DNA of 64,000 nt from Prochlorococcus marinus str. MIT 0919 (GTDB taxonomy: Bacteria; Cyanobacteriota; Cyanobacteriia; PCC-6307; Cyanobiaceae). Below, piece by piece: positions 47,388 through 51,621 of this stretch. The position numbers and the translations under genes were made by a program. A model generated the notes under the pieces. The model searched no databases. It was not told the DNA's origin and saw only the letters and a program-made list of their open reading frames with translations. Every line of letters begins with the position of its first letter. Positions within the stretch are counted from its first letter, which is position 1. The DNA lies in NCBI RefSeq assembly GCF_027359375.1, contig NZ_CP114779.1, positions 1,240,001 through 1,304,000 on the forward strand, given 5' to 3'.

Positions 47388-48527
47388 ATGTATGTTTTGG
47401 GTTTAATGAGTGGTACCAGCGCAGATGGCGTGGATGCTTCTTTGGTTGAATTTAAAGGTAATCCATACCGTCCTAAATGGAGATTAGTAAATTCAACTTA
47501 TACGCCATATTCTTTGAATTTACGAGAAGAGATTATTAATTGTGGTCAAGGGCTCAAATTGAATAGTCAACGCTGGCTAGAGCTTGCAGAATCCATTACG
47601 GAATTTCATGCTCTAGCAGCTAGAACTTGTGATCCGAAGGGTAAAGCAGTAATAGTTGGAGGTCATGGTCAAACGGTTTTTCATAGACCTCCTTGTTCTT
47701 CTAAGAGAGGAGCAAGTTTGCAATTGTTGCAGGCGCCTTTATTAGCAACTTTGCTACACAAGCCAGTTATTTATGATTTTAGAGCTAAAGATTTGGCCTT
47801 GGGTGGTGAAGGAGCTCCTTTGGTTCCCCTTGCTGATAAGGCCTTGCTTGGAAGAGGATTGGGCTGGCGTGGAGTCTTAAATATAGGAGGCATTGCAAAT
47901 ATTTCTTTAATCCCTCCACGATTTGGTCCAGATAGAGATTTTCCTGTTTTGGGTTGGGACTGTGGTCCAGGAAATACTCTTATTGATCTGGCTGTGCAGA
48001 CTGTTTGCAGGGGCAAATTAACCTTCGACTGTAATGGTTTGATTGCTTCAAAGGGGTCTCCAGATTTATACCTTATTGAGAAATGGCTGGAAGAACCTTT
48101 TTTTAAAAAAATACCACCAAAATCCACTGGGAGAGAGACATTCGGTTTAGAGGATTTAGATAGACGTTTGACTGAGATGAGTCAAATGACCTCTAATGAT
48201 TTAATAGCTACCTTAACGGTTTTTTCTGCCTGCGTAATAGCACAAGATTTGAGGAGTTTATATAACACCAAATCTATTCTTCCTATTGAGCTTTTTGTTG
48301 CGGGTGGAGGGGCAAAAAACCCTTTTTTAATGCGAGAAATTGCTTCAAGATGCCATGGGATTAAAGTGCAAACTATTGATTTAATAGGAATTCCAGTTGT
48401 AGCTAGAGAGGCAATAGCTTTTGCACTTTTGGCATGGTGGAATGTTTTAAATACACCAGGCTCTTCTAGCTTGACAACAGGTGTTTCTAGACCAGTAGTA
48501 CTTGGGACTAAAGCGACTCCAAATTAA
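47388..48527 (+). CDS. anmK: Anhydro-N-acetylmuramic acid kinase
   Basis: 379 residues. Phosphorylates and hydrolyses 1,6-anhydro-MurNAc from peptidoglycan turnover. [18 protein letters not shown] (phosphate loop), [24 protein letters not shown] and [12 protein letters not shown] are visible. It starts two bases after the ktrA stop, so it is the last gene of that plus-strand operon. Confidence 0.93.
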
Positions 48528-48535
48528 ATAAATTC

Positions 48536-48841
48536 TTAGTTTCCAGGTCTTAAAAGTTTAAATCTGCGAGGAGCGCCTCTGAGTCTTCTTGTTTGTTGAG
48601 CTTCTAATGCAGAGATAAATTGTTCTCTGTTTTTGATCGAAGAGTCTTCATTAGTGCCTCTCAAGGCAGATGAATCAAGACGTTGTATTCCTTCTTGAAT
48701 TAAAACCTTTGCCATATTGCTTACGGTCCTTGATTCTCTGGCGGCTAAGAAATGTAATTTTTCGCACAATTCTTCAGTTAGGACAACTTGAATCCTTGGA
48801 GATTTTGGTTTGCCATTTGATGAGTTTTGACGGGTAGCCAT
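48536..48841 (-). CDS. Ribbon-helix-helix (CopG-like) DNA-binding protein
   Basis: 101 residues. A beta strand PRIQVVLTEELCEKLHFLAA followed by a helix SRTVSNMAKVLIQEGIQRL gives the RHH fold of CopG/Arc regulators. The C-terminal half is basic (RRLRGAPRRFKLLRPGN). Palindromic sequences just upstream (48870-48899) are candidate operators. No toxin-like partner gene is adjacent, so an antitoxin role is not supported. Confidence 0.75.
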   Translation of the reverse strand: MATRQNSSNGKPKSPRIQVVLTEELCEKLHFLAARESRTVSNMAKVLIQEGIQRLDSSALRGTNEDSSIKNREQFISALEAQQTRRLRGAPRRFKLLRPGN

Positions 48842-48869
48842 GACTCAGCAAAACTAACGGTTAATAAAT

Positions 48870-48899
48870 AGTGTACACTGGTGTGCAAGGATAGTATCC
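48870..48899. promoter_or_regulatory. Two palindromes upstream of the RHH gene
   Basis: AGTGTACACT (48870-48879) is a perfect 10-base palindrome and GGATA-G-TATCC (48889-48899) a second one. They start 28 bases upstream of the RHH start. RHH regulators often bind such short palindromes in their own promoters. Confidence 0.4.
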
Positions 48900-49015
48900 A
48901 CGAGTATGATTTTGCTAACCACTTTCAAAAATCATTTTGAGTCATCCTTGCCGGTGACAAGTTATTTCTCAACTTATTAGTTGATTTCCTAGTTCAGTTA
49001 GTCAAAGGATTTTCA

Positions 49016-49381
49016 ATGTCTAAACCAATTCTTCCTAAAGCACCTTCTCGCAGGTCCCCTCGCCCCTCTAAATCCATTGAAGGCAAAGTTGTTCCTAAAG
49101 TGAAAACCAACAGGAAACGACAGAGTGCGAAGGAGAATAGTGATGTATTGGTCTCAGCAGTCATTAGCTCCTATTTACTTACTCATTTGCACCATGTTTT
49201 GCAAAGGGCTGAATTGGTTGCTAGTCAAGAAGGTAGAGGTGTTCAAGCAGCTAACTTTGCTCAATTGAGGAAGGTACTTTGCATGGATGCCAGAAGTATG
49301 CAAGATGCTTCTGCCTTAGGTTTTGCAGATGGTGACTTAGATAAATTTCATGATTCAAATTTTGGGTCAAAAGTTGCTTAA
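49016..49381 (+). CDS. Hypothetical protein, 121 residues, basic N-terminus
   Basis: A Lys/Arg/Pro/Ser-rich N-terminal tail (1-45) followed by a helical domain VLVSAVISSYLLTHLHHVLQ and AQLRKVLCMDARSMQDA. No family recognised. It lies 33 bases upstream of the Nif11-like gene, both on the plus strand. Confidence 0.6.
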   Translation: MSKPILPKAPSRRSPRPSKSIEGKVVPKVKTNRKRQSAKENSDVLVSAVISSYLLTHLHHVLQRAELVASQEGRGVQAANFAQLRKVLCMDARSMQDASALGFADGDLDKFHDSNFGSKVA

Positions 49382-49414
49382 TTGAATAGGGTTAATGTAG
49401 ATACATTGATTTTC

Positions 49415-49645
49415 ATGAGCAGCAATGCGGCGAAGCTCTATCACAAAATTGAAGCAGACGCTTCATATACAAAGATGCTTTTTCGCCAGGCTCTTCAAGA
49501 TCCACAAGGAGCCTTGAAGTCAATTTGTGATATAGGAGAACAAATAGGGCTTCCTGTGACGAAGGAAGAAGTAAAAGAATATCTTTCTACCTTGGATGAT
49601 TCAGATACAAAGCAATGGCTGATAAAAGCTAGAGGAGGGTTGTGA
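49415..49645 (+). CDS. Nif11-like small protein ending in Gly-Gly-Leu
   Basis: 76 residues from ATG 49415. The segment AKLYHKIEADASYTKMLFRQ and the ICDIGEQIGLPVTKEE stretch match the helical Nif11 domain, seen both in nitrogen-fixation-associated proteins and as the leader of some lanthipeptide precursors (prochlorosins). The protein stops three residues after a double glycine (ARGGL), where a leader would normally be cut, so no core peptide follows. It could be an orphan leader or simply a short Nif11 protein. Confidence 0.5.
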   Translation: MSSNAAKLYHKIEADASYTKMLFRQALQDPQGALKSICDIGEQIGLPVTKEEVKEYLSTLDDSDTKQWLIKARGGL

Positions 49646-49648
49646 ATT

Positions 49649-49816
49649 TTAATTCTTGGTAGATGGTTTAGGTTCAAGTTTCTGAATTAAAGGAGCTTCG
49701 GTCGCTTCTCTTCTGTCATAACCACCCCCACCTGCCAATGTCCAAAAGAACCAATAGCTTGGTATCGCTAATGCAGCAGCCAAGAAAATGGCAGTAATTT
49801 GTTCCAGTCTTATCAT
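49649..49816 (-). CDS. Small single-helix membrane protein
   Basis: From ATG 49816, 55 residues: MIRLEQITAIFLAAALAIPS begins a hydrophobic helix running to about residue 28, followed by a Gly-rich and charged tail. A longer frame from 49885 exists but its extra residues look like leader. It converges with the Nif11-like gene, three bases apart. Function unknown. Confidence 0.55.
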   Translation of the reverse strand: MIRLEQITAIFLAAALAIPSYWFFWTLAGGGGYDRREATEAPLIQKLEPKPSTKN

Positions 49817-49899
49817 TTCTGAAGATCCGGAATGATTAATATGAGACTCTTGTTTGTTATCAATTCTAGAACTATACCCATGCATGAGGTTTGCTCATA

Positions 49900-51621
49900 G
49901 TGATAAGACTAGAGAGAGTTAGCAAAATTTATTCCACTGGGGAAGTTCTTAAAGACGTTACTTGGGAAATCAAGTCTGGGCAAAGGGTTGGCCTTGTCGG
50001 TGTAAATGGTGCTGGTAAATCAACTCAATTGAGAATCATTGCTGGTTTAGAAGAACCGTCCGCTGGAGAAATTGTTAAACAAGGAGAACCAGCTATTGCA
50101 TATTTACAACAAGAATTTGATGTTGACCCTTCTAGAACTGTTAGGGAAGAATTATTTCAGGCTTTTTCGGAAGCATCATTGGTTTTAAATCAAAAAATCG
50201 AAGTCGAGCATTCATTAGAATCGCCGAAAGCTATTAATGACTCTATTTATTTAGGTCAACTAGTTAAAGAGTTGGGTGCTCTTCAAGCACGATTTGAGGC
50301 GGTACATGGTTATGAACTTGAAGCAAAGATTGATAAGTTGTTACCAACTATAGGTTTTCGAATTGATGAGGGGAATCAATTAGTTGGTAATTTTTCTGGT
50401 GGATGGCAAATGAGAATAGCGTTAGGTAAAATACTTTTACAAGAACCAGATCTATTATTATTAGATGAGCCTACGAATCATTTAGATTTAGATACAATCG
50501 AATGGCTAGAAAATTATTTATTGCAGCAGAACTCTGCCATGATAATTATTAGTCATGATAGAAGATTTTTAGATAAAATTTGTACAAATATAGTTCATAC
50601 TGAAAATGGTAAATCGAAGTTTTATATTGGAAATTATACTAAATATCTTGAGCAGAAATCGTTTGAAGAGGAATCTTTAAAAGCAGCTTTTGATCGTCAA
50701 CAGAAAGACTTAGATGTACAAAAAGCTTATATAGATCGCTTTAGGGCAAGTGCTACTAGAAGTACGCAAGCTAAAAGTCGTGAGAAGATGATTAGTAAAA
50801 TTGATCGAATAGAATTGCCAGTTAGTCAATTGGCTCAGCCAAAGTTTTCTTTTTCTAATGCACCTCGCTCAGGTAAGCATATAGCTAGTGCAAAAGATAT
50901 ATCACTTACTTATGAAGATAAAATTATTTTTTTAGGAGCAAATCTTGAGATTGTATCGGGGGATCGTATCGCAATAATGGGTCCTAATGGATCTGGTAAA
51001 TCTACTTTTCTTAGGTTATTGATGGGGATGGAAAAGCCTGAAGATGGCGAAATTAATATAGGTAAATATAATGTTTTAATTAGTTATTTTGAGCAGAATC
51101 AATCTGAAGCTCTTGATTTAAATAAGACAGTTATTGAAACTATATACGAAGCGGCACCGGAATGGCCTCAACGAAAAGTCCGTTCATTATTAGGAAATTT
51201 TGGCTTTACAAAAGATGAAGTATTTAAAAATGTATCTGATTTAAGCGGGGGGGAGAAGGCTCGTCTTGCCTTGGCTTTGATTATAGTGAACCCATGCAAT
51301 TTTTTATTGCTTGATGAGCCTACCAATCACTTAGATATACCTGCAAAAGAAATGCTAGAAGAAGCAATTAATGATTTTAGTGGCTCTGTAATTATCGTAT
51401 CTCACGATAGATATTTTATTTCTAAAGTTGCTAATAAAATTATTGAAATAAGGGATGGCCAGATGTTTCTTTATTTAGGAAATTATGACTATTATAAAGG
51501 TAAAAAATTAGAAGAAGAGAAGAATAAACAAGAGGAGATAGAGCTGGCAAAAAAAGAAGCAAGGCGTTTGGCTAATCGTGACCGTCAAAGGAAAAGAAAG
51601 ATAAAGACAAAAAAATCATAA
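49900..51621 (+). CDS. ABC-F family ATPase
   Basis: 573-residue soluble twin-ABC protein (EttA/Uup/YdiF group) that acts on ribosomes or DNA repair. Two Walker A motifs (GVNGAGKST, GPNGSGKST), two signatures (FSGGWQMRIALG, LSGGEKARLALA) and a long linker (about 235-310) are present, and a C-terminal Lys/Glu-rich coiled coil is seen as in Uup. I prefer GTG 49900 over the upstream TTG because it gives the normal MIRLERVSK start. Confidence 0.9.
   Translation: MIRLERVSKIYSTGEVLKDVTWEIKSGQRVGLVGVNGAGKSTQLRIIAGLEEPSAGEIVKQGEPAIAYLQQEFDVDPSRTVREELFQAFSEASLVLNQKIEVEHSLESPKAINDSIYLGQLVKELGALQARFEAVHGYELEAKIDKLLPTIGFRIDEGNQLVGNFSGGWQMRIALGKILLQEPDLLLLDEPTNHLDLDTIEWLENYLLQQNSAMIIISHDRRFLDKICTNIVHTENGKSKFYIGNYTKYLEQKSFEEESLKAAFDRQQKDLDVQKAYIDRFRASATRSTQAKSREKMISKIDRIELPVSQLAQPKFSFSNAPRSGKHIASAKDISLTYEDKIIFLGANLEIVSGDRIAIMGPNGSGKSTFLRLLMGMEKPEDGEINIGKYNVLISYFEQNQSEALDLNKTVIETIYEAAPEWPQRKVRSLLGNFGFTKDEVFKNVSDLSGGEKARLALALIIVNPCNFLLLDEPTNHLDIPAKEMLEEAINDFSGSVIIVSHDRYFISKVANKIIEIRDGQMFLYLGNYDYYKGKKLEEEKNKQEEIELAKKEARRLANRDRQRKRKIKTKKS

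Follow-up and report, generated by a model that had tools for sequence, protein, structure and literature searches.

What is a leader-like protein for if it ends right at the point where a leader would be cut, with nothing left to release? The question is raised by a gene in the window, a stretch of 64,000 nucleotides that corresponds to positions 1240001-1304000 of a single genome of 1,716,770 bases. (Coordinates below are those of the window unless another contig is named.) The gene, which we call N11, lies on the plus strand at 49415-49645 and encodes a Nif11-like protein of 76 amino acids that starts with MSSNAAKLYHK and ends with WLIKARGGL. Upstream, on the same strand, is RKP (49016-49381; 121 amino acids), and downstream, on the minus strand and convergent with N11, is TM (49649-49816; 55 amino acids). 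The first-pass annotation had described the neighbors of N11 as an Arg/Lys/Pro-rich protein and a membrane protein with one helix. Both open reading frames are indeed present, and TM has a single hydrophobic helix. It had also offered three explanations for N11: the remains of a secreted-peptide system, a leader-only regulator, or a normal Nif11 protein.

The reading of the gene's end as ARGGL at a double-glycine cut point, without a core peptide, is correct. The codons for KARGGL and the stop codon occupy 49625-49645, and the stop comes one residue past the Gly-Gly. Nothing follows in frame, because the complementary stop codon of TM begins 3 nt past the N11 stop. At the other end, the N11 reading frame opens at a TTG (49382), and in most of the orthologues that we read an ATG stands where 49415 is in the window. 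The gap between RKP and N11 is 33 nt. A scan of 48400-50100 against Rfam gave no match. Between 48500 and 50000, promoter-like sites were about as frequent as expected by chance (2 versus 3.1) and terminator-like sites were more frequent (5 versus 1.1), with none of these five at the 3' end of N11.

We examined whether N11 is a Nif11 protein. The window's own protein does not match the Nif11 model of Pfam (PF07862) at E values up to 10, nor any Nif11 model in NCBIfam, including TIGR03798; the three matches to PF07862 in this genome are all to other genes. But an alignment of the N11 family (47 of 51 distinct proteins, after dropping those at least 90% identical to a kept one) gives a different picture: with E values of up to 10 allowed, 27 of its 47 members have a match to PF07862 (best E = 1.3e-6) and 4 to TIGR03798 (best E = 5.5e-5). 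Another 5-of-47 result came from NF038399, a model of the NHLP clan (best E = 0.015). When the N11 profile was aligned by hhalign to a profile of 14 single-domain Nif11 proteins, picked by hand from the 28 that we read, the probability was 94.4 and the E value was 9.4e-8 in this one comparison. A profile search of the PDB matched a "Nif11 domain-containing protein" (9zn4_A) over residues 2-65 of N11 (E = 0.0018). So the HMM check fails for the single protein and succeeds for its family, and the annotation was right about Nif11-likeness in the sense of remote homology. By that standard the N11 family is a divergent branch of Nif11.

The predicted structure is consistent with a helical body and a loose tail. 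In the AlphaFold model of N11, which has moderate confidence (mean pLDDT 77.3, pTM 0.63), the main helices lie within residues 4-59 (block pLDDT 77-87) and a short helix spans residues 68-71. The tail is poorly ordered, and the pLDDT of the final two blocks is down to 60 and 51. A fold search with this moderate-confidence model gave no significant match (best Z = 2.5 in a second look), and 9zn4 was listed in neither search.

The tail itself is invariant. We located distinct N11 orthologues by their first 60 residues, and all 94 of them end in KARGGL followed by a stop; most of the loci came from searches with N11 at full length as the query, a choice that may favor genes with the tail retained. 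(At an earlier stage the count was 81 of 81.) Conservation of the Gly-Gly and of the stop codon across strains had been set beforehand as a check, and every copy has the Gly-Gly, then one leucine, then the stop. Even the N11 of genome G010, the most divergent found by the single-sequence search (39% identical) and located in another gene neighborhood, ends in DKARGGL. Among the profile matches listed, the match in G390 stops at position 75.

Is this conservation of protein or of DNA? In 69 genes, which were chosen for having this very tail pattern and so serve only to show codon usage, the tail uses all six arginine codons, all six leucine codons, all four alanine codons, all four glycine codons, and all of the synonymous lysine codons, and all three stop codons occur. 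Therefore, selection acts on the protein and not on the DNA. In the N11 family alignment, the mean identity per column is 64% and 17 of the 76 columns are invariant; if these were placed at random, six consecutive invariant columns at the end would have a probability of 5.7e-5. (The alignment also contains a near-invariant stretch of the type LFRQALQDPQG.) The identity of KARGGL in every copy read suggests that the tail has a job of its own.

N11 is nearly universal in its family of genomes. The named relatives of the window genome are Prochlorococcus, Synechococcus, and Cyanobium, and from the placement of these genera we take the family to be Cyanobiaceae. A search with the N11 profile found a match in 262 of 271 Cyanobiaceae genomes that are at least 90% complete. 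N11 may not be strictly essential, as the search found no match in the other nine of these genomes. They include G023, which was also missed by a single-sequence search, and two of them (G526 and G527) belong to one genus. The single-sequence search found N11 in 33 of 37 family genomes and in 0 of 23 genomes outside the family; the four family genomes that it missed are 69 to 90% complete. In a sample of 291 genomes from the class, 36 family genomes were positive with the profile, and there was no family genome among the misses listed (226 further misses lie beyond those listed). Nine more distant genomes in this sample had weak, partial matches that fell short of the tail.

Among the matches listed, most genomes have one copy of N11, seven have two, and four (G516, G520, G525, and G302) have 3 to 9 profile matches. 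G302, G520, and G525 have seven to nine matches each, and the eight extra matches in G302 are partial. For N11, there was no match in phage records, the 92 pattern matches in viral contigs did not include a relative, and PHROGs gave nothing useful (best E = 0.18). Because it is present in 262 of 271 genomes and its tail is identical in 94 of 94 genes, N11 is a standard, undecayed gene of picocyanobacteria.

We then asked which genes belong with N11. Beside RKP, just outside 49016-49816, there is another gene that the first-pass annotation did not mention. This gene, RHH (48536-48841, minus strand; 101 amino acids), is divergent from RKP and encodes a ribbon-helix-helix protein that matches PF07878 (RHH_5) with E = 7.3e-17 and 61.3 bits, above the cut-off of 26. 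RKP is harder to classify: it has no significant match in Pfam or the PDB, nor, for the window's protein, in NCBIfam, and we judged its AlphaFold model (pLDDT 65.9) too weak for a fold search. An alignment of all 49 distinct RKP proteins shows a basic and variable N-terminal third, a conserved part with two helices (about residues 43-100), and, after a variable linker, a C-terminal alanine. This alanine, mostly in -VA or -AA, is the last residue of all 49 proteins and could be a C-terminal signal. In the class sample, RKP was found in 35 of the 36 family genomes; outside the family, there was one weak match (in G164, E = 0.0064), with stops inside.

RHH and RKP occur together. Among the 37 family genomes, 29 have both genes, eight have neither, and none has one alone (P = 2.6e-8, Fisher exact test, a value that is inflated by the adjacency of the genes, shared ancestry, and incomplete assemblies). 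The divergent intergenic region contains a conserved promoter- or operator-like block (48870-48910, not assigned to a strand) with the elements AGTGTACACT, GGATAGTATCC, and TATGAT. Across 63 distinct RHH-RKP intergenic regions, the box GG[AG]TA[GC]TA[TA]CC is present in 62; in 58 of these 62 it is preceded by GTGTAC at a distance of exactly 18 nt, and the strict form GGATANTATCC is present in 43 of the 63. The exact box GGATASTATCC is found at one place in the window genome, which points to a local regulator. (With one mismatch allowed, there are 13 places, versus 10 for a reversed control, so the exact match alone is informative.) RHH probably represses itself and RKP through this shared, putatively operator-like block.

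Do RHH and its block also control N11 and TM, so that N11, RKP, and TM form one operon-like system? The genes are adjacent in most of the loci that we compared, and in the window N11 follows RKP closely. But four genomes (G010, G011, G024, and G027, three of which are at least 95% complete) keep N11 and have no match to RHH or RKP; in RCC307 (locus L080), RKP and N11 are separated by about 630 nt that contain an open reading frame of 150 amino acids; and in G010, N11 and TM are side by side among different neighboring genes. That a single system spans all three genes is therefore unlikely. The three genes do not look like the one small system of the annotation; the locus holds two units, N11 with TM and RHH with RKP. 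RHH and RKP are a module that is separate from N11 and TM.

RHH invites comparison with TrcR, a ribbon-helix-helix autorepressor of Anabaena. According to PMC10272220, a conserved motif spans the -10 region of the TrcR gene, much as for RHH, and TrcR is missing from some picocyanobacteria such as Prochlorococcus. We considered whether RHH is TrcR because the -10 box TACACT of that paper occurs in the conserved block. The motif match is no better than chance: a 12-base part of the TrcR motif ATACTACACTTGTATTAC matches at 48884-48895 with 3 mismatches, and the window has 49 such matches versus 54.6 expected. There was no TrcR-like motif near L201, an RHH match from outside the family. TrcR has homologues in Nodularia phages; a tblastn search of phages with RHH, at a limit of E = 0.1, found nothing. 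With the motif count at chance and no phage match, we do not identify RHH as TrcR. In searches for defense genes with PADLOC, RHH, RKP, and N11 had no match, and we took a match to TM (9.7 bits, E = 0.047) as chance.

We return to what N11 does. One explanation is that it is a precursor of a secreted peptide, either active or a remnant, whose Gly-Gly is cut by a transporter with a C39 peptidase and whose core is lost or is a single residue. The position and form of the Gly-Gly do match the ends of Nif11-derived leaders as they are given in the portion of PMC2887384 that was available, and one relative (G031) has matches to both C39 and LanC. However, a Gly-Gly end alone is not enough to call a RiPP precursor, and none of the 94 N11 genes has a core. 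A search for the LanC part of lanthionine synthetases and for the C39 peptidase, along the lines that the annotation had proposed, found neither in the window genome (no match to PF05147, LANC_like, or to PF03412). Across the 37 family genomes, LanC has a match in just the one relative and C39 has matches in 16 (in G017 and G030, only below the curated cut-off), versus 33 for N11, which occurs both with and without C39 matches. Many of the C39 matches sit in open reading frames of about 1000 amino acids. The outer neighbors of the locus (presumably an anmK-like gene on the left and an ABC-F-like ATPase gene on the right) are of other kinds, and we recognized no transporter-peptidase or modification enzyme among them. 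Thus the precursor explanation is strongly disfavored, and the idea that N11 is what remains of a secreted-peptide system fails: the gene is nearly universal, its tail is invariant in every copy read, and its own genome lacks matches to C39 and LanC. N11 could instead be a free leader that tunes RiPP enzymes or transporters by occupying the sites where they bind leaders. It does have a leader-like body and end and no core, but genomes that have no match to C39 or LanC (the two kinds of target that were searched for) also retain it, and we consider such a regulator very unlikely. The remaining option of the annotation, a normal Nif11 protein, fits best of the three, except that the C-terminus is unusual and fixed.

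The tail might also be a by-product of the overlapping, convergent TM gene, which has its final codons and its stop on the opposite strand. In the class sample, TM orthologues are found in the same 36 family genomes as N11. TM has no significant match in Pfam or the PDB; a second, weaker TM-like match occurs elsewhere in G215, G269, G006, and other family genomes. Among the 73 N11 genes with TM located (the motif found no TM for the other 21 of the 94), TM overlaps N11 in 58, by 23 nt in 42 of these and by 141 nt in one. In the overlapping species, the stop codon of TM falls at the start of the tail codons of N11; in the corresponding stretch of the window (49625-49651), the two genes are instead 3 nt apart. 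But 15 genes without the overlap have the same KARGGL tail, which refutes the overlap as its sole cause. Also, the synonymous positions of the tail vary freely and the C-terminus of TM is variable. (Our alignment of TM has 31 rows, selected by hand from 47, with one mis-cut fragment excluded.) We give the by-product explanation almost no weight. The pairing of the two genes is constant even where the neighborhood changes: in G010 (locus L146, on G010:C33), N11 and TM lie tail to tail beside two genes that we take to encode a ROK-like kinase and an ABC ATPase, and that genome has no match to RHH or RKP. G011, where neither RHH nor RKP was found, likewise has N11 and TM tail to tail. Since N11 and TM mostly overlap at their 3' ends, the constant pairing can be physical linkage, and TM is only a candidate for a partner of N11.

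Our preferred explanation is that N11 is a docking protein. N11 would be an orphan member of the Nif11 fold family that has ceased to be, or never was, the precursor of a peptide. The helical body may be retained in the cytosol as a module for docking proteins, and what is the Gly-Gly cleavage site in Nif11 leaders may have turned into a fixed and flexible C-terminal recognition tail (W-x-x-KARGGL-COOH), which would bind one conserved partner. We put the probability of this candidate role at roughly 45%. Under it, N11 would stay in the cytosol, would not be cleaved, and would bind a partner with its tail. The main rival is that the tail is a signal for degradation or quality control: an AAA+ protease or its adaptor would read -GGL-COOH, and N11 would be a short-lived regulator. 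Invariance would be just as expected of a tail that signals degradation or is a site of processing; this one is short, poorly ordered, and at the extreme C-terminus, and the adjoining RKP proteins end in a conserved alanine (mostly -VA or -AA). However, degrons rarely require as many as six invariant residues, with an internal lysine, alanine, and arginine among them, and we know of no bacterial GGL degron. Overall, a degradation signal seems rather unlikely, and the other explanations for N11 (remnant of a RiPP system, leader-only regulator, by-product of the overlapping genes) are all less likely still.

How does N11 compare with known Nif11 proteins? Nif11 domains are otherwise treated as RiPP leaders or as "function unknown." The precursors described by TIGR03798 (N11P and the leaders of prochlorosins) resemble N11 in having a helical leader and a Gly-Gly end. 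They differ in that N11 lacks the variable core after the Gly-Gly, is not hypervariable, is present in one copy in most of the genomes listed, and, in the window, is found in a genome with no match to C39 or LanC. The three other Nif11 proteins of this genome do not have a Gly-Gly end. The single-domain members of PF07862 have a related helical body (as indicated by the hhalign result and by 9zn4), whereas the window's N11 does not match that model and has the LFRQALQDPQG-type stretch and the KARGGL end.

Another family of picocyanobacterial proteins also has a fixed tail. In the portion of PMC10783134 that was available, the Nif11 proteins of group F are described as having an N-terminal MALDQL and a C-terminal GEYH/N. 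A protein of this type is encoded at locus L001 (G000:C1:551180-551323, minus strand): it is a coreless Nif11 protein that ends in PGEYN and matches the Nif11 model of Pfam with 56.5 bits (cut-off 23.8). All 22 of the proteins of this type that we read end in PGEY followed by N, H, or T, so group F shares a fixed C-terminal tail with N11, but the tail is unlike KARGGL. Of 29 Nif11 loci in this reading, all but L084, L089, L091, and L103 contributed. In the literature that we searched, we recognized no description of a KARGGL-tailed family, although the supplements of PMC10783134 may include N11. Unk10 of marine Synechococcus also has a Nif11 domain, with no RiPP role described in the available parts of PMC3877281. 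Unlike N11, it has 107-118 amino acids, is found in some strains, and is linked to phycobilisomes and chromatic acclimation, being encoded in the chromatic acclimation island (same parts of PMC3877281). Leaders of the related NHLP kind engage an enzyme via their folded surface, according to the portion of PMC12455567 available to us, and we counted this for docking by N11.

A broader and more tentative proposal is that a Nif11 leader domain became a housekeeping protein of picocyanobacteria, whose uncleaved tail, at the former Gly-Gly cleavage site, would dock one conserved partner, possibly TM, and that N11 and the PGEYN-tailed family may together form a class of "tailed orphan Nif11" adaptors. 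In any case, a nearly universal and coreless protein with a six-residue tail, in Prochlorococcus, Synechococcus, and their relatives, offers a clean and small target for studying a role of Nif11 outside of peptide biosynthesis.
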